From Actinomycetota bacterium (lineage in GTDB: Bacteria; Actinomycetota; Actinomycetes; Nanopelagicales; Nanopelagicaceae): a stretch of DNA of 60,646 nt. How positions within the stretch are numbered: the first letter of the stretch is position 1; every line of letters begins with the position of its first letter. The notes under the pieces are model-generated. The model saw nothing but the letters and a program-made list of their open reading frames with translations, had not been told where the DNA came from and did no database searches. Made by a program: the position numbers and the translations under genes. Where the stretch lies: the NCBI GenBank assembly GCA_947372965.1, contig CANBVR010000002.1, positions 1-60,646 on the forward strand, in the 5' to 3' direction. Positions 12,714 to 59,650 of this stretch are shown here, piece after piece.

Positions 12714-13334
12714 TTAAAGGGCTGACTTTGGGAAGCCTGAGATGCCACGCCAAATGAGATTTGAAACTAATTCACCAGCAGCATTTCTATCGATCTTGCC
12801 ATCGCGCTCTAACCAGTGACGGGCTGAAGTTTGAACAGTGCCAATAAGTCCAACAGCAAGCATCATGGAAGATTCCTTTGTCAGGCCGGTATCCAATGAA
12901 ATTACCGCTGAGAATGCTGCAGCACAGTCATACGTCATTCGATTTAACCGCTCACGAACTTGTGGCTCAACGCTCATATCGCTTTCAAAGAGCAGTCGAA
13001 ACGCTTCACCTTCGCGGTTAATGAAATCAAAATAGGCATCAGTTGTTGCGCGAACACGTTCAGAGTTATCGGTAGTTGAGGCAACAGCCTTTTGAATGTC
13101 GAAAATCAGGGAGTCGATATGGAGATCAAGAACGGCTAGGTAGAGATCCAACTTTGATGGAAAATGTTGGTAGAGAACTGGCTTACTAACCTTCGCCCGA
13201 TCTGCTATCTCATCCATTGCCGCCGCGTGATAACCAGCTGCTGTAAAAACTTCAAGAGCAGCGGAGAGGAGTTGGGCTCGCCGTTCATCGCGAGGTAAAC
13301 GTCCCTTATTTGCGGCTGTTGTATCTGTACTCAT
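12714..13334 (-). CDS. TetR-family transcriptional regulator
   Basis: The N-terminal TetR helix-turn-helix is clear: RRAQLLSAALEVFTAAGYH, then MDEIADRAKVSKPVLYQHFPSK (about residues 18-65). A helical ligand-binding domain follows, for 206 residues in total. It resembles Rv3208 of mycobacteria in sequence style and neighbourhood (DUF3107 downstream, moeZ divergent). A direct-plus-inverted repeat (TGCGAGT, TGCGAGT, ACTCGCA) lies 32-57 bases upstream of its ATG and is a good candidate autoregulatory operator. The ligand is unknown. Confidence 0.93.
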   Translation of the reverse strand: MSTDTTAANKGRLPRDERRAQLLSAALEVFTAAGYHAAAMDEIADRAKVSKPVLYQHFPSKLDLYLAVLDLHIDSLIFDIQKAVASTTDNSERVRATTDAYFDFINREGEAFRLLFESDMSVEPQVRERLNRMTYDCAAAFSAVISLDTGLTKESSMMLAVGLIGTVQTSARHWLERDGKIDRNAAGELVSNLIWRGISGFPKSAL

Positions 13335-13365
13335 TGACCATATCTTATGGAATTCCTCTGCTTGG

Positions 13366-13391
13366 TGCGAGTTTCTTGCGAGTGACTCGCA
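13366..13391. promoter_or_regulatory. Candidate TetR operator: three TGCGAGT half-sites
   Basis: TGCGAGT occurs at 13366-13372 and 13377-13383 as a direct repeat with 11-base spacing, about one helical turn. Its exact inverse ACTCGCA is at 13385-13391, so the second and third copies form an inverted repeat around one base. The array lies 32 bases upstream of the TetR start codon, where autorepressor sites are usual. Assignment to this regulator is inference. Confidence 0.55.
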
Positions 13392-13480
13392 TCTACGGCG
13401 ATTTTGGCACCTTTACTGAGTTCAGTGGTCGTTAATTTTGAATTGCACGGAATATCCACGAAAATTAGCGGGTTACCTTC

Positions 13481-17598: not shown

Positions 17599-17913
17599 GT
17601 GACCTACGTAATTGCTGATCCTTGCGTCGATATAAAAGATAAGTCATGTATTGAAGAATGCCCAGTCGATTGCATCTACGAGGGAAATCGCATGCTTTAC
17701 ATTCAACCTGATGAATGTGTTGACTGTGGTGCCTGCGAACCAGTCTGCCCAGTTGAAGCAATTTACTATGAAGACGACATTCCAGCTGCGTCAAAAGAGT
17801 TTGGCAAGATTAACGCGGAATTCTTCCTCGAAATCGGTTCACCTGGTGGCGCGAGCAAGGTTGGTGCAACCGGTACTGATCATGCCTCAGTAAAAGCTAT
17901 TCCAGCAAAATAA
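17599..17913 (+). CDS. fdxA: Seven-iron ferredoxin (FdxA type)
   Basis: The 104-residue ferredoxin begins TYVIADPCVDIKDKSC and holds two cluster motifs: C-x7-C-x3-C-P (residues about 9-21, a 3Fe-4S site) and CVDCGACEPVCPVEAI (a 4Fe-4S site). FdxA proteins carry electrons to cytochromes P450 and other oxidoreductases. GTG 17599 is chosen because TGGAGGG (17585-17591) lies 7 bases upstream and the protein then starts as in other actinobacteria; an ATG at 17569 adds ten residues. dapC follows without any ordinary start codon, so its translation may depend on ribosomes finishing fdxA. Confidence 0.94.
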   Translation: MTYVIADPCVDIKDKSCIEECPVDCIYEGNRMLYIQPDECVDCGACEPVCPVEAIYYEDDIPAASKEFGKINAEFFLEIGSPGGASKVGATGTDHASVKAIPAK

Positions 17914-17929
17914 TTTTAAGAAGCCAGAA

Positions 17930-18997
17930 CTGAAGCTGCCAGATTTCCCGTGGGATGCGTTAGCACCCTATGGAAAGCGGGCGCGCGAGCACCCACAAGG
18001 CGCGATCGATCTCTCTGTTGGTACTCCGGTTGATGAGACACCAAAATTTATCCAGAGCGAACTTATTGCATCAAGCAACGCACCTGGCTATCCGGTGACA
18101 ACAGGTACCCCAGAACTTCGCGAAGCGATGCGAACTTGGGCGGAGAAAGTATTGGGCGCTTCTGGAGATTTTGATGTGCTCCCAACAATCGGCTCAAAAG
18201 AACTTGTGGCTTTTTTGCCAACAATTCTTGAGGCAAAAACTCTCCTTTTCCCAAAGATTGCCTATCCAACGTACCTAGTTGGTTCAATAATTTCTCAAGC
18301 TAAATCAACTGCGGTTGATATTGACCCAAGTTCATGGCCGGCGGCTGATATTGCCTGGATAAATTCACCTTCAAATCCAACTGGTCGGGTGCATTCCATA
18401 GAAGAACTCGAAGCAACAATAAGTTATTCAAAAAAGCATGGCACAGTAATTGTTAGTGATGAATGTTATTTAAATTTTCCGGCCACGGATAAAGTGCCTA
18501 CTTCTATTCTCAAAGTTGCCAAGGGTGAAAATAAGAATTTAATCGCAGTTCATTCGATGTCCAAGCGCTCAAATCTCGCTGGGTATCGCGCAGGGTTGAT
18601 CGTTGGAGACTCCCAATTAATTAAGAAAATTTTAGAGATTCGAAAGCACGCTGGAATGATGGTTCCGCTTCCAGTCCAACGGGCTATGACTGCCGCCTTG
18701 GGTGATGAAGTACATGTGCAGGAGCAAGCGGCTCGTTATCGTAAGCGCCGAGAAGTACTTCGCCCAGCGCTAGAGGCTGCTGGATTCAATATCGATTTCA
18801 CCGAAGCTGGTTTATATATTTGGTGCACGAGAAATGAAAGTGATTGGGATTCTGTCGCGTGGCTGGCCGAGCGTGGAATTCTGGCAACGCCTGGCAATTT
18901 CTATGGAGACGCTGGAAATCGTCACATTCGCGTTGCACTTACGGCAACTGATGAGCAAATCGCAATGGCAGCTAGCCGCATTACGAATTCACTCTAG
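17930..18997 (+). CDS. dapC: Succinyldiaminopimelate transaminase (DapC type); start codon non-canonical
   Basis: A PLP fold-type I aminotransferase. The conserved N-terminal piece LPDFPWDALAPYG and IDLSVGTPVD match actinobacterial DapC, NSPSNPTG is the substrate loop, and HSMSKRSNLAGYRAG holds the PLP lysine. It converts N-succinyl-2-amino-6-ketopimelate to succinyl-diaminopimelate, the step after DapD. The frame is open from 17894, after an in-frame TAA at 17891-17893. No ATG, GTG or TTG occurs in it until GTG 18095, which would delete about 55 conserved residues. CTG at 17930 or 17936 fits the expected start. I use 17930 (355 residues), but initiation is uncertain. fdxA ends 16 bases upstream in another frame. 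Confidence 0.85.
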   Translation: MKLPDFPWDALAPYGKRAREHPQGAIDLSVGTPVDETPKFIQSELIASSNAPGYPVTTGTPELREAMRTWAEKVLGASGDFDVLPTIGSKELVAFLPTILEAKTLLFPKIAYPTYLVGSIISQAKSTAVDIDPSSWPAADIAWINSPSNPTGRVHSIEELEATISYSKKHGTVIVSDECYLNFPATDKVPTSILKVAKGENKNLIAVHSMSKRSNLAGYRAGLIVGDSQLIKKILEIRKHAGMMVPLPVQRAMTAALGDEVHVQEQAARYRKRREVLRPALEAAGFNIDFTEAGLYIWCTRNESDWDSVAWLAERGILATPGNFYGDAGNRHIRVALTATDEQIAMAASRITNSL

Positions 18998-18999
18998 AA

Positions 19000-20190
19000 A
19001 TGGCTACCTCCCTGGAGTCAGCTTTTGCTGAAGCAATTGAGATATTTAACAATAAGAATTCATTAGTGAGAGTCGTACTCTCGGGTCGTCGTCGAAATAT
19101 GCAGACTTCTTGCGAGCGAATTGATATTCGTCCAGTTTTGATCAAAAATGAAATTGTAATTCAGGTGATGGAGAATGACGGCCGAGTAACAACAACTAAG
19201 AATTATGGTGCCGGAGAGTTAGATTTCAAGGCCTTAATTGAGAGTGGTTTTGCAAATATATTGATCGAACACACAACTGGAGCTCTTTCGATAAGAATCA
19301 CTAAGAAGGGCGAGGCCCTGATCCATAAAGAGAAGGGTGCTCGTGAGCAAAAACTTGAACACGATCGCAAGAAGGAGCGATTGCTTGACCCAGCAGATCC
19401 CTTTCTAATTGAAGTTGGAATCTCTGATTCAAGCGGAAAAGTTAAACCTTCACGCCAAGACAAATATCTCCAAGTAGAAGAATTCCTACGTATTTTGGTG
19501 CCGACGCTAAATTCTGCGATAGATGCCGGGCATATAAAGAAGCCAACCCCAGAGAGCCCGCTTGTCATTGCAGACCTTGGTTGTGGAAATGCCTATTTAA
19601 CTTTTGCGACCCATCAATTTCTTAAGAGTATCGGTATCCCAGTCCAAGTTATTGGCATTGATATTCGTCCACAATCTTTCAAGCGCAACAGTGAAATCGC
19701 TTCTAAGTTGGGGATTGAAAAGACTTTAATTTTTAAAGCTGAAGCGATTGATAAGACTTCAATCCAAAGTTCCGATATTGCAATTGCACTTCATGCCTGT
19801 GATACGGCAACCGATGATGCGATTGCGTGGGGAGTTAATGGGGGGTCTAAAATTCTTTTAGTTGCACCATGCTGCCAACATGACTTACAGACTCAGATGA
19901 TTAACGTTCCCCAGCCATGGAATTTATTGACCCGTCATGGCTTGATGAAAGAACGTCTCGGCGACTTGATGACTGATGGGTTACGAGCCCAAATACTTAA
20001 GCTTCTTGGTTACCGAACGGATGTAATTGAGTTTGTGGGCGGTGAGCACACGCCACGAAATATTTTGATTCGCGCAGTAAGGACTGGCGCGAAAGCCGAT
20101 GAGAAGGATCAAGTGGTTTTTGAGCAGATGTTAAATGAGTGGAAGATCGTTCCGGCCTTGCTAGAACGGGTTAATCTCCCGCATAACTAG
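19000..20190 (+). CDS. SAM-dependent methyltransferase (Methyltransf_32-like)
   Basis: This 396-residue protein has an N-terminal domain of about 170 residues rich in charged residues (MQTSCERIDIRPV, then a Lys/Arg-rich helix). The class I methyltransferase domain has motif I IADLGCGNAYLTF, an acidic turn GIDIRPQ, ALHACDTATDDA and APCCQHDL. The last two are typical of a family sometimes linked to RNA or small-molecule methylation (PF13679-like). The substrate is unknown. It starts three bases after dapC and is followed by a 119-base gap before the permease, so it closes the transcription unit. Confidence 0.82.
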   Translation: MATSLESAFAEAIEIFNNKNSLVRVVLSGRRRNMQTSCERIDIRPVLIKNEIVIQVMENDGRVTTTKNYGAGELDFKALIESGFANILIEHTTGALSIRITKKGEALIHKEKGAREQKLEHDRKKERLLDPADPFLIEVGISDSSGKVKPSRQDKYLQVEEFLRILVPTLNSAIDAGHIKKPTPESPLVIADLGCGNAYLTFATHQFLKSIGIPVQVIGIDIRPQSFKRNSEIASKLGIEKTLIFKAEAIDKTSIQSSDIAIALHACDTATDDAIAWGVNGGSKILLVAPCCQHDLQTQMINVPQPWNLLTRHGLMKERLGDLMTDGLRAQILKLLGYRTDVIEFVGGEHTPRNILIRAVRTGAKADEKDQVVFEQMLNEWKIVPALLERVNLPHN

Positions 20191-54051: not shown

Positions 54052-55158
54052 CTACCTTGAAGGATTGGCGAGGCTCGTAAGGCTGCGAATTGCGCTCGCA
54101 AATTGAACGTATTGTGCCTCACTATTTAAAACGCTCTGTGACCAATTAAGGGCGTTCTGGCGACGGGCGAGCAGATTTTCGGGCGCCAAGATCCATCCAT
54201 TTAAAACATCTGAAACTTCTTGCGCGCTTGCCGCGATTGTTCCGCCACCACTTTGCTTAAGTAATTCAATGCATCTTGGAAGTGGCGTTGAAATTGTCGC
54301 AAGACCTGCAGCAGCATATTCATATAACTTTGATGGGACTGCTTCAACGAACGCAGGAGTGCTCTCAAGAAGCGTCAACCCAACCCAAGCTCCTTTAGCG
54401 AACTTCCAAGAATCTTTTGGTGCTAAGCGACCATGAAATTCAACCCGAGATGATGCGGGGGATGTCGCCTGCCAGTTGGTTAGGAAGTCTTGGTCAGCGC
54501 TTGAAACATTTCCAATGATGTCAAAGTTCCACTTGGGAGAAAGTTCGGCAACTTCTAACATCATCTGCAAGCCACGAGTTTTTCGAACATCACCAATATA
54601 AATCGCTCTAGGTTGCGCTTCAATTTCGCCGCTTGGCGTAATCATCGAAGAGTCAGGTAAATTTCTTATGACCATTCTATTTTTAGCGCCAAAAGGTGGT
54701 ACCTGTACATCCGCGACGGTGGTCAGATCTGCTTTTGCCGCAAAATAAGTTGCGCTCCGAGCTATTAATCTGGCTAAGAATCCAACAAGACCTTTAGCCC
54801 AAGTACGGTCTCTAAGTAGTTGCAAATAATCCTCATGAACATCGGCAACTAACTTTTGGCGACGAATTCTAGTTACAAGGTAGGTAAGTGGGATTAAATC
54901 TGGTGCAACAACAATTACAACTTCACCTGTTGCTTTAAAGGGTAGTGAAAGGTCACGGATGACGCGAGCTAACATTCCCTTTCCGCCGGGGGCTCTGTGG
55001 AAAGTAGAACCACTTGGTGCATCAAGACTATTTCCCAAAGCCCAGATATCAACCGTCAAGCCAGATTTAATTAAGGAATTTGTCAGGCGATGAAGTCTGG
55101 CATCAGCAACGTTATCGGCTGATGTTAGGAGCGTAGTGTGCCCCTTCAATAACTTCAT
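54052..55158 (-). CDS. Glycosyltransferase (GT4-like)
   Basis: The 368-residue protein has an N-terminal domain with KLVADVHEDYLQLL and a C-terminal half with RAIYIGDVRKTRGLQMMLE and VPSKLYEYAAAGLATISTPL, the donor-binding helix of GT4 enzymes. It would add a sugar to a lipid-linked or polysaccharide acceptor at the membrane; the specificity is unknown. It overlaps the ABC ATPase stop by one base, so it is coupled to the export genes. Confidence 0.83.
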   Translation of the reverse strand: MKLLKGHTTLLTSADNVADARLHRLTNSLIKSGLTVDIWALGNSLDAPSGSTFHRAPGGKGMLARVIRDLSLPFKATGEVVIVVAPDLIPLTYLVTRIRRQKLVADVHEDYLQLLRDRTWAKGLVGFLARLIARSATYFAAKADLTTVADVQVPPFGAKNRMVIRNLPDSSMITPSGEIEAQPRAIYIGDVRKTRGLQMMLEVAELSPKWNFDIIGNVSSADQDFLTNWQATSPASSRVEFHGRLAPKDSWKFAKGAWVGLTLLESTPAFVEAVPSKLYEYAAAGLATISTPLPRCIELLKQSGGGTIAASAQEVSDVLNGWILAPENLLARRQNALNWSQSVLNSEAQYVQFASAIRSLTSLANPSR

Positions 55159-55967
55159 TACATATCCTCAAAGTTGGAAGGAAGTGTGCCAACATCCAAG
55201 AACTTTAGATATTGATCAACAATTGCTTCTGGTTTATCTTTCGCCAGCATCGATCCTTTATGAAGCCAGATTGCGCTATCGCAGAGCTCATTAATCGTTG
55301 CTAGTGCGTGCGAAACGATAATAATTGTTCGAGCTTCCGAGCAAAGCTCGCGCATTCTCTGGAAAGACTTCTCCTTAAATGAGGCATCGCCAGCTGAAAG
55401 GGCTTCATCTAGTAACAAAATATCGGGAGTCATATTTACTGCAACACTAAAAGCCACTCGGCCATACATTCCACTTGAGTATGTACGAACTGGCATATCA
55501 ATGAAGCCATCTGGAAGCGCCGCAAATTCAGCAATTGCTTCGGTCTTGGCTTCGATTTCATCTTTACTCAAACCAGATGCCAAGCCACCTAAAATAATGT
55601 TATCTCGACCAGATAAGGCCGGATTAAATCCAACTCCGAGCGCCAATAGAGTCGAAATCTTTCCATTAACAATGATTCGACCTTCCGTTGGCGGCAAAAT
55701 TCCAGCGATCGAACGCATCAACGTAGATTTACCAGCACCATTTGCTCCAACAATTCCAAGGACCGATCCGTGTGGCACATCAAGAGTTAAATGCTTTATC
55801 GCTTCAACCGTGCGCATGCGAACTTTCTCGCCTTTGCTCGCGCGCATTACGGCATTCTTTAACGTGCGTTTAGTATCGACATTAATCTTGTATTTAATTG
55901 AAAGATCTTCAATGCGCACGGCCAGCTCTTCTGGCATCACGACTGGAGCTTTAGATTCTGACCGCAA
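55158..55967 (-). CDS. ABC transporter ATP-binding protein, polysaccharide exporter (TagH/Wzt/KpsT type)
   Basis: The protein of about 269 residues has Walker A IVGANGAGKSTLM, the signature YSSGMYGRVAFS and Walker B DILLLDEALSAGD. IKYKINVDTKRTLKNAV and HVALKRTLKNA-type starts are typical of polysaccharide or teichoic-acid export ATPases. It lacks the C-terminal sugar-binding domain found in longer Wzt proteins. The start is uncertain: TTG 55967 has AGGGAG 7 bases upstream, GTG 55973 and GTG 56000 lie within the permease gene, and ATG 55937 follows its stop. It pairs with the permease at 55951. Confidence 0.9.
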   Translation of the reverse strand: MRSESKAPVVMPEELAVRIEDLSIKYKINVDTKRTLKNAVMRASKGEKVRMRTVEAIKHLTLDVPHGSVLGIVGANGAGKSTLMRSIAGILPPTEGRIIVNGKISTLLALGVGFNPALSGRDNIILGGLASGLSKDEIEAKTEAIAEFAALPDGFIDMPVRTYSSGMYGRVAFSVAVNMTPDILLLDEALSAGDASFKEKSFQRMRELCSEARTIIIVSHALATINELCDSAIWLHKGSMLAKDKPEAIVDQYLKFLDVGTLPSNFEDM

Positions 55968-56832
55968 AGTCACGCTCCCTTGATACAAAGAAATAACCAC
56001 CGATTAAAAGTGAGCCAGCTGCCCACGCAAATGCGCCAATAAACTCTGAAAGCGTCGGAGTTTTGCCTTCAATCCAGATATTTGAAGTAGCAGATAGAAC
56101 TGGTCCGAGTGGGTTGGCATAGAGGGCGATTCGGTGCCAACCGTGAAGCATGCTTGGGAGCCAAAGGATTGGTGAGAGATACAGCCAAATTCGCATTACA
56201 TAAGAAAGCAATTTATTAGTATCTCGGAAATAAACATTCATGGTGGCAAATAAAAGAGCCAAGCCAAAACCGGTAATTCCAACTAGTGCAACAATTAATG
56301 GCACCCACAAGAAACTTATCGCTAGACGTGGAACTTGGGTGGCGGGAAAGAATATTTTTCCAATAATTATCACGAAGATATAGACCGGAATTGTTGGTAA
56401 GAAAGTTTGGAAAGCAGAAATAGAACTTGAAAAAGGCAGTAAGGCCCTAGGGAAGGCTTGATTCAATATCAAGCGCCCACCAGTTGTAATTGATTGGGCT
56501 CCGGCTGTAATGCAATTTGAGGCGAAGTAAAAGGTGAAGAGACCAATCAAAATATGGGCCAAAGTAGTCAGGCCATTGGTCTTAGTATTGCCACCTCGAA
56601 TTACGGTTACTAGCAGGAAGTAGACCATCGCTAGAAGTAAGGGATTTAGTACCAGCCAAACTTTGCCGAGTTTTGATTCAAGGTATTCGGCTTTGTCGGC
56701 AAATCGGGAAAGTTCAATTGCAAACGATCTGCGATTCCAAAACTCCTTTAAGTATGGAATAACTGGTGGCAACGAAGCGCGGTGTGGTTCGAAGACTTGA
56801 ATCTTCGGTTGGAAATCTGCGCTCGGGCTCAT
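55951..56832 (-). CDS. ABC-2 permease, polysaccharide exporter (TagG/Wzm/KpsM type)
   Basis: The 293-residue protein has a cytoplasmic N-terminus of about 65 residues (with YLKEFWNRRSFAIELSR) and six hydrophobic segments, and it ends FFVSRERDFAVRI, the conserved ERDFA-type tail of TagG/Wzm permeases. Together with the ATPase it would flip or export an undecaprenyl-linked glycan across the membrane. It is the first gene of the operon; its ATG is 131 bases from the divergent histone-like gene, so that gap holds the operon promoter. Confidence 0.9.
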   Translation of the reverse strand: MSPSADFQPKIQVFEPHRASLPPVIPYLKEFWNRRSFAIELSRFADKAEYLESKLGKVWLVLNPLLLAMVYFLLVTVIRGGNTKTNGLTTLAHILIGLFTFYFASNCITAGAQSITTGGRLILNQAFPRALLPFSSSISAFQTFLPTIPVYIFVIIIGKIFFPATQVPRLAISFLWVPLIVALVGITGFGLALLFATMNVYFRDTNKLLSYVMRIWLYLSPILWLPSMLHGWHRIALYANPLGPVLSATSNIWIEGKTPTLSEFIGAFAWAAGSLLIGGYFFVSRERDFAVRI

Positions 56833-57652: not shown

Positions 57653-58422
57653 GCTTTTAAAGCTAGAGGTAGTGCTTCAAGTACATCTGTTGCAGTTACA
57701 GAACCGCTCTTTCTAGTCGCAAGTTTTCCAGCGACGCCATGAGTCTTCACAGCTAGAGCCACAACTTTTAAAGTCTCAGCCATATTTGTTGGTTGATTGC
57801 TAGCTAGCGCCGATCCAATCAATCCTGCCAAAATATCTCCAGTGCCTGCAGTTGCTAATTCCGCACCGCCAGATTTATCGAGGATAAATTTCCCATCGGG
57901 CGCAGCAATTACGGTGTTCGATCCCTTAAGGACCACGATCACATGAAATTTCTTAGCCATTGCAAGGGCGGTTGTTGTTCGCTCTGATGAAGATTTGATG
58001 GGGAATCCTAATTTTGCTGCTTCACCCTCATGAGGAGTAATCAACGTAAATGCGGTATCTGAATTCTTAGCAAGTGCCATCGCCTCACCATCGAGCACTA
58101 AATAACGAGACTCTGGAAAGATAAAGCGAGCAGGCAATTTTGGAGCGCCAGAACCAATGACCCAAGCATCGCCAGCAAACTCGGAGGCTTTTGCAATTGG
58201 AACAACATCGGGGTAGGCGCTTAAAACTAAATTTGAGGGGAGCTCTTCGCGCAATAAATAATTTACATAACCGCTGCCACCTCGCCTTGCTCCGCCAACG
58301 CAAAGCACTGCCGCACCAGGGTATTTTGCACTACCGGCCATCACGGCAACTGTGCCATGTGAATATTTGTTGGCGTTTTTCACTCGTTTAGGAATAAGTC
58401 CCATAGGTAAAGAGTGCCACAT
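57649..58422 (-). CDS. nnrD: ADP-dependent NAD(P)H-hydrate dehydratase
   Basis: The protein of about 257 residues matches the C-terminal dehydratase of NnrDE: YSHGTVAVMAGSAKYPGAAVL, VLDGEAMAL, LITPHEGEAAKLG and the nucleotide-binding ATAGTGDILAGLIG. It repairs hydrated NAD(P)H with ADP as phosphate donor. The NnrE epimerase domain often fused to it is missing and is not next to it. ATG 58422 is chosen; a longer frame to 58530 would cross the divergent permease start, and ATG 58404 is possible. The 3' end overlaps hpf by 4 bases. Confidence 0.87.
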   Translation of the reverse strand: MWHSLPMGLIPKRVKNANKYSHGTVAVMAGSAKYPGAAVLCVGGARRGGSGYVNYLLREELPSNLVLSAYPDVVPIAKASEFAGDAWVIGSGAPKLPARFIFPESRYLVLDGEAMALAKNSDTAFTLITPHEGEAAKLGFPIKSSSERTTTALAMAKKFHVIVVLKGSNTVIAAPDGKFILDKSGGAELATAGTGDILAGLIGSALASNQPTNMAETLKVVALAVKTHGVAGKLATRKSGSVTATDVLEALPLALKA

Positions 58423-58438
58423 TTCGTTAAGATCAAGT

Positions 58439-59650
58439 ATGAGCACTTTCACACATAACTTACTAACTGGTCTGCAAATGAGTTGGTGGATGTTCTTCGA
58501 TACATTCTGGGCGCTCGTACTTGGTTTCACACTTTCTGGCGCCGTTCAAGCTTTTGTCTCACGAAAAGCTATGCGCAAAGCCCTAGGGGACCATAAAGTT
58601 AAAACAGTTGCAAAAGCATCTTTCTTTGGTGCAGTTAGTTCATCTTGCTCATATGCTGCAAGCGCGTTGGCTAAGTCGCTCTTCACTAAAGGGGCAGATT
58701 TCACCTCCTCGATGATTTTTATGTTCGCCTCTACTAATTTAGTTTTTGAATTAGGGCTAGTGCTTTGGGTTTTGATTGGTTGGCAATTTGCCGTTGCAGA
58801 ATTTGTCGGTGGCTTTGTAATGATCCTTCTTTTAGCAATATTGATACCTCGTTTAATTCCGCAGAATCTGATTGCAGGAGCCAGAGATTCTTTTGAAATG
58901 GATCAAGATTCCACAAGCACCCGCAAAGCCAATTGGCATGATGCTGCCGGATACACCATCGGTGATTTCACCATGCTACGTACCGAGTTAGTTGTTGGAT
59001 TTTTAGTATCCGGTTTAGCAACCACCTTTGTGCCAGATACATTTTGGCGAAGCCTATTTTTGACTGGCCATGGATTCCTTGGAACGTTGGAGAATGTAAT
59101 TATTGGCCCCTTTATAGCAATTATTAGTTTTGTTTGTTCAGTAGGAAATGTTCCTCTGGCAGCAACCCTTTGGAATAGCGGAATTAGCTTTGGTGGAACT
59201 ATCGCCTTTATCTTCGCCGATCTAATCACCTTGCCTTTGCTTATTATTTATGGGAAGTACTATGGAAAAGCGCTTACTCTCCGCCTAGTTGGGGTCTTCT
59301 GGTTAGTTATGAGCCTTAGCGGATTAATAACAGAGTACATATTTAAGGGCCTGGGAATTTCACCGACGATGAAAATGGCGGTTATGTCCCAGCGACATAT
59401 CGGCTGGAATCGAACTACGATTCTTAATTTAATTGCAATTGCGACATTGGCTTGGGTCTATTACATGTATCGCACGCAAAGTAGTGGCTCTGAGATTGAA
59501 GAATTTGCTAAGGACTATGTCTGCGGAATGCAGGTTCGGATAGCCGATGCGCCAGCAGAATTTGAGTTAGCTGGAAAAAAGTATTACTTCTGCATGGATG
59601 GCTGCCGCGATAATTTCGCAGCTAACCCAGCGAAATTCTTACCTAATTAA
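58439..59650 (+). CDS. PF03773-type permease fused to a C-terminal YHS metal-binding domain
   Basis: The 403-residue protein has two groups of membrane helices separated by a loop, with the family repeats ALGDHKVKTVAKASFFGAVSSSCSYAAS and GPFIAIISFVCSVGNVPLAA. These mark the DUF318/ArsP-like permease family, which includes exporters of organoarsenicals. After a final helix the C-terminus reads KDYVCGMQV, YYFCMDGCRDNF and AANPAKFL, a YHS domain with three cysteines (one in CGM, two in CMDGC) able to bind a metal such as copper. The fusion suggests metal-linked transport; the substrate is unknown. ATG 58439 is 16 bases from the nnrD start. Its end overlaps the lipoprotein gene by 4 bases. Confidence 0.87.
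   Translation: MSTFTHNLLTGLQMSWWMFFDTFWALVLGFTLSGAVQAFVSRKAMRKALGDHKVKTVAKASFFGAVSSSCSYAASALAKSLFTKGADFTSSMIFMFASTNLVFELGLVLWVLIGWQFAVAEFVGGFVMILLLAILIPRLIPQNLIAGARDSFEMDQDSTSTRKANWHDAAGYTIGDFTMLRTELVVGFLVSGLATTFVPDTFWRSLFLTGHGFLGTLENVIIGPFIAIISFVCSVGNVPLAATLWNSGISFGGTIAFIFADLITLPLLIIYGKYYGKALTLRLVGVFWLVMSLSGLITEYIFKGLGISPTMKMAVMSQRHIGWNRTTILNLIAIATLAWVYYMYRTQSSGSEIEEFAKDYVCGMQVRIADAPAEFELAGKKYYFCMDGCRDNFAANPAKFLPN

Follow-up and report, generated by a model that had tools for sequence, protein, structure and literature searches.

Very few bacterial genes with a start codon other than ATG, GTG, or TTG have been characterized experimentally, according to the cited sections of PMC5472188. The closest described systems are infC, the IF3-autoregulated gene for initiation factor IF3, which starts with ATT in Escherichia coli and ATC in Streptomyces (PMC5472188), and sigR of Streptomyces, with an IF3-repressed GTC start that, in those sections, is reported for Streptomyces only (PMC5472188). 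Gene pairs with a stop/start overlap (spacing of -4 nt), written generally as NTGA in PMC12548453, are described as coupled by termination–reinitiation (PMC12548453; PMC6728339); CTGA and CTG are absent from the main text of PMC6728339, and CUG from PMC12548453. Overexpression of IF3 markedly lowers re-initiation in E. coli, IF3 works against non-canonical codons, and re-initiation that lacks a Shine–Dalgarno (SD) site is named IF3-sensitive by the same authors (all in the cited part of PMC2268962). CUG complexes are less stable than those on AUG, GUG, and UUG, and CUG is uncommon as a bacterial start (PMC11497404); in E. coli, ATT is approximately 0.3% as efficient as ATG (Hecht et al., 2017, as cited in PMC10666635). 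A counter-example is the CUG of the Caulobacter dnaA leader, which gave a toeprint and is unused in vivo (PMC8443254). Among the matches listed from open-licence PMC papers, there was no report of a CTG start for dapC.

The window, i.e., the whole stretch of 60,646 nt analyzed here, is contig C2 of a 1.27-Mb genome split in 73 contigs. It encodes an actinobacterial ferredoxin gene, fdxA (17599–17913, plus strand), with a probable GTG start at 17599 as read from the sequence and the stop TAA at 17911–17913; in a profile search (query 17602–17910) its product scored 173.1 bits against NF045480 (FdxA_Actino; cut-off 125). A spacer of 16 nt (17914–17929) separates fdxA from dapC (17930–18997, plus strand; 355 codons plus TAG at 18995–18997), for which a succinyldiaminopimelate transaminase activity is predicted: when read from CTG 17930, the product matches TIGR03539 (DapC_actino) at 468.6 bits (cut-off 355.65) over profile positions 1–357, the whole profile, and so falls within this family. 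DapD_actino, of the same pathway, is encoded at 666–1577 on the minus strand (477.6 bits). The gene after dapC (19000–20190, plus strand; 396 aa) has no NCBIfam match, and from a motif its product resembles a methyltransferase.

The dapC frame has a TAA at 17891–17893, is open from 17894 to 18997, and has its first ATG, GTG, or TTG at GTG 18095–18097, 55 codons past CTG 17930; the sequence-only reading, by which dapC has no canonical start before its conserved core, is thereby borne out. The codons between the in-frame stop and CTG 17930 (AAG CTA TTC CAG CAA AAT AAT TTT AAG AAG CCA GAA) include no NTG or ATN, and CTG 17930 and CTG 17936 are the sole codons of these types in the right place. 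The stop of fdxA lies 16 nt ahead of CTG 17930, in a different frame from dapC. In a comparison of window ORFs in which 110 codons or more follow the first canonical start, 67 codons precede that start in dapC, against 27 and 26 in the plausible genes that come next; an ORF that runs antisense to the gene at 55158–56003 reaches 79 but was not taken as a gene. The start-less stretch of dapC is more than chance. The genes with 27 and 26 codons encode an ArsP_1/YHS permease-like protein (58271–59650, plus strand) and a TetR-like protein (12714–13412, minus strand), respectively, and because their Pfam domains begin past the first canonical start, neither needs an odd start. A genome-wide habit of odd starts was rejected as an explanation, dapC standing alone among the window ORFs scanned.

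Comparison across Nanopelagicaceae, a family of very small freshwater bacteria, places the start, almost certainly, at CTG 17930–17932. In the window's own genus (27 genomes, dapC located in 24), all 24 junctions read, the window included, have CTG at the homologous codon. The family sample comprises 102 junctions plus that of genome G008, making 103; of 110 loci, L016, L101, and L108 lacked the anchor, and their genomes (G008, G073, and G095) were read separately. In 80 of these junctions, from 12 genera, the start falls in this column, which is start-like in 80/80; the genera were admitted by start position, so that this total is partly by construction, although the codon make-up and the leucine usage given below are not. 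The codon is non-canonical in 66/80 (CTG 44, ATC 15, ATT 4, ACG 2, ATA 1). Ordinary starts at the same place in relatives, which would have counted against the sequence-only reading, do occur, but only in a minority of 14/80 (GTG 7, TTG 5, ATG 2). No other column between -8 and +20 is more than 40% start-like. Leucine codons in the start column are CTG or TTG in 48/48 cases, whereas the invariant leucine two codons further on is mostly CTT or CTC (CTT 57, CTC 27, CTG 9, CTA 6, TTG 2, TTA 1; n = 102) and mostly CTT in the own genus as well; the column is thus not a mere conserved leucine. Taken at face value, the contrast with leucine usage in the neighboring column has a probability of 4e-47, a figure that ignores relatedness. 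That invariant leucine is encoded by the second CTG (17936–17938), which had been offered as a candidate alongside CTG 17930: a CTG start stands, and 17936 gives way to 17930, since it encodes the leucine of LPDFPWD (leucine in 102/102 family junctions, in six different codons) and not a start.

The upstream sequence also confines the choice. Of 65 non-canonical rows, 62 have an open frame whose entire upstream part is free of canonical codons, and the remaining three have one only within fdxA: in G016, G043, and G027 the nearest lie 133, 29, and 29 nt, respectively, from the end of the fdxA stop. Those of the single-contig genomes G027 and G043 are TTG, a possible overlapping start; near the junction of G008 a canonical codon is absent. 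An in-frame stop within six codons upstream of the start pins its position in 52/80 junctions. The G195 (L041) junction reads TAA GCC ACG AAC CTT, and since ACG is its only near-cognate, an ACG start is implied; G190 (L043) has ACG in the start column plus ATC one codon earlier. AAA or AAG is the second codon in 70/80, and such a second codon may help initiation. The other 23 of the 103 family junctions (genera g6, g9, g14, and g16) start elsewhere. Raw junction counts overstate independence, as the genomes are related, and the assignment, comparative as it is, is about as firm as comparison allows.

Conservation of the translated N-terminus bears on whether a shorter DapC is instead made from GTG 18095, the first canonical start in frame. 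Such a protein would lack the invariant LPDFPWD region, and its match to PF00155, which starts at profile position 42 rather than 4, is short of the first 38 positions matched by the full product. LPDFPWD is nearly invariant across the family junctions and is encoded by many synonymous codons. For the 53 codons at 17936–18094, the window compared with 23 genus genomes gives dN of 0.20–0.30 in all 23 comparisons and dS of 1.7–3.3 in five, being beyond calculation in 18; as judged from these substitutions, the codons are under purifying selection. GTG 18095 is therefore too late for a real start, and we regard the shorter product as highly improbable.

The window is a metagenome-assembled contig, for which the sequence-only reading had allowed that a sequencing or assembly error conceals an ordinary start. 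This is scarcely credible given that the same CTG recurs in 24/24 genus genomes with dapC, the window included, and that a single-contig genome from another genus (G054) reads stop, two codons, CTG. An FdxA–DapC fusion through a +1 shift had also been suggested. Such a fusion, whether it arises by frameshifting or by reading through the end of fdxA, draws on the AAA-TAA at 17908–17913 and on a dapC frame that is open upstream of the fdxA stop. However, the phase of dapC relative to fdxA is spread over all three frames (36, 28, and 13 of 77 junctions) instead of being constant, and in 52/80 the in-frame stops described above close the dapC frame within six codons upstream. Thus, no single shift or read-through serves every junction, and the proposed fusion falls away with a probability close to nil.

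Termination at fdxA followed by re-initiation at CTG 17930 is the reading that we favor, and the geometry of the junctions is consistent with it. Over 77 junctions, dapC starts between -4 and +30 nt from the fdxA stop, with 2 or 3 nt the commonest distance; the genes are co-directed and the start lies in or very near the upstream stop, as in a coupled pair. The spacer in the window is almost without SD complementarity (duplex energy of -0.7 kcal/mol); the median over 64 non-canonical dapC rows is -3.0 kcal/mol, and over the 15 ATC-start rows -6.8 kcal/mol. The other genes of the window have a similar median (-2.85 kcal/mol for 48 mechanical ORFs, dapC's GTG ORF among them), so that a weak SD is nothing unusual in the window and does not prove coupling. 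From the spacing together with the weak SD we infer that dapC translation is likely coupled to fdxA, which the sequence-only reading had merely thought conceivable. Ribosomes finishing fdxA would re-initiate at CTG 17930, read by initiator fMet-tRNA, without needing a strong SD site. No unusual RNA fold was found at the fdxA–dapC junction (z = -0.20). Two other routes to an odd start were rejected: a leaderless dapC transcribed from a separate promoter, as a consensus scan gave no plus-strand sigma-70-like match between fdxA and dapC; and an odd initiator tRNA as a general cause, as a pattern match recovered the ordinary anticodon stem-loop GGGCTCATAACCC in 38 of 41 genomes (own genus plus class outgroups), the window's own included.

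Set against the known systems, dapC shares with genes of the infC and sigR type a non-canonical start and its conservation in relatives, and departs from them in the strong SD. In this sample, infC has ATC at the expected start place in 36/37 loci (L115–L144 and L225–L231, own genome included; L136 lacks the search motif), preceding the RIND motif by five codons in 34 and by six in two, with a median SD energy of -9.05 kcal/mol. In infC, a strong SD thus compensates for a conserved start outside ATG, GTG, and TTG, and the product is the regulator itself. By contrast, dapC has a biosynthetic role, follows another ORF closely, and joins a weak SD to a start codon that differs among relatives. 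Like dapC, sigR is an actinobacterial gene with a conserved non-canonical start, and its start sets a protein ratio; it is, however, the upstream gene of a coupled pair and has an extended RBS (cited sections of PMC5472188), whereas dapC is downstream and SD-poor in its own genus, and the trait extends across the family and beyond. With NTGA pairs dapC has in common the short or negative spacing of co-directed genes, C-TGA in outgroups having the same geometry, and differs in that its start codon is CTG. By analogy, fdxA–dapC would operate as a coupled pair whose second gene has a start of the infC/sigR type, yet in its own genus without the strong SD of those genes.

The analogy also makes it plausible that dapC is under IF3 control and that its start has a dosage role relative to ferredoxin. 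A weak start may leave DapC open to restraint by IF3, and the weak codon may be retained by selection, most likely because it holds DapC well below ferredoxin. ATG is scarce (2/80, although it is the first canonical codon in 26/48 window ORFs of at least 200 aa) and CTG is fixed in the genus, which suggests selection on weakness rather than drift. The combined reading, in which termination–reinitiation behind fdxA uses a selected weak CTG start that most likely limits DapC relative to ferredoxin and is restrained by IF3, is one that we consider probable.

The main rival accepts the starts at CTG, ATC, or ATT and takes the odd codon as neutral: coupling to fdxA would do the work, and the codon would drift among near-cognates with its weakness unselected. 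Several codon types do coexist within one genus, g8 (ATC 11, CTG 7, ATT 4, GTG 3, ACG 2; n = 27), but CTG is fixed in 24/24 junctions of the own genus despite saturated synonymous sites, and ATG is as rare as stated; we deem neutral drift unlikely, if less so than the alternatives above. A quick tree of 79 of 81 sequences (48 non-canonical and 31 canonical; L171 and L219 left out) implies at least five switches between canonical and non-canonical starts and seven changes among non-canonical states, the seven including one for L218, whose only near-cognate sits elsewhere. Start codons are ordinary in some genera (ATG in g13, GTG in g10, and TTG or ATG in the Planktophila-like g16), and a weak start is therefore not required everywhere. 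In g16 (e.g., L058, L062, and L070), dapC starts at TTG or ATG inside fdxA in 12/16 rows, with an overlap of about 20 or 32 nt.

Beyond the family, the class set comprised 39 genomes, of which 37 junctions were read (not those of G084 and G088) and 36 had fdxA upstream, representing 27 families. Thirteen of the 36, each from a different family, lack a canonical start throughout the stretch between the LPDF anchor and a point five codons ahead of the fdxA stop; in 12 of them, dapC overlaps the end of fdxA by the four bases C-TGA (stop/start). Of the class genomes that do have a canonical start, 7/23 are in the same 4-nt overlap phase, close to the one third that chance would give; against one third, 12/13 gives P = 1.7e-5. 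In an enlarged, partly selected set of 77, C-TGA is present in 15 of the 17 that lack a canonical start, and within Nanopelagicaceae in 3/3 junctions of g9. In the GC-rich outgroups, the C of C-TGA doubles as the third base of the last sense codon of fdxA, a position at which C is common, and this is a point in favor of neutral drift; codon identity alone thus proves little there, and it is the overlap phase that is informative. It is possible, and we propose it tentatively as somewhat short of an even chance, that in much of class Actinomycetia dapC has been released from the ATG/GTG/TTG rule by re-initiation behind fdxA (C-TGA in many families; CTG, ATC, ATT, ATA, or ACG in Nanopelagicaceae). 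Selection would then favor a weak start, sensitive to IF3, through which the making of lysine and cell-wall precursors is linked to ferredoxin translation. In that case, C-TGA would be an overlooked class of stop/start overlap, missed by gene finders limited to ATG, GTG, and TTG.

A core biosynthetic gene, for lysine and the cell wall, thus appears with non-canonical starts in most sampled genera of the family, and many related families have it in C-TGA overlaps. With gene callers that accept only ATG, GTG, and TTG, dapC would be truncated or given a wrong start. At this one site the relatives offer a natural set of variants (CTG, ATC, ATT, ATA, ACG, GTG, TTG, and ATG) for testing how re-initiation and IF3 read start codons. 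On the quick tree, the dapC loci of two MAG records titled Bifidobacterium breve and Streptomycetaceae bacterium (L148 and L216) group inside this freshwater family, and their titles look wrong.
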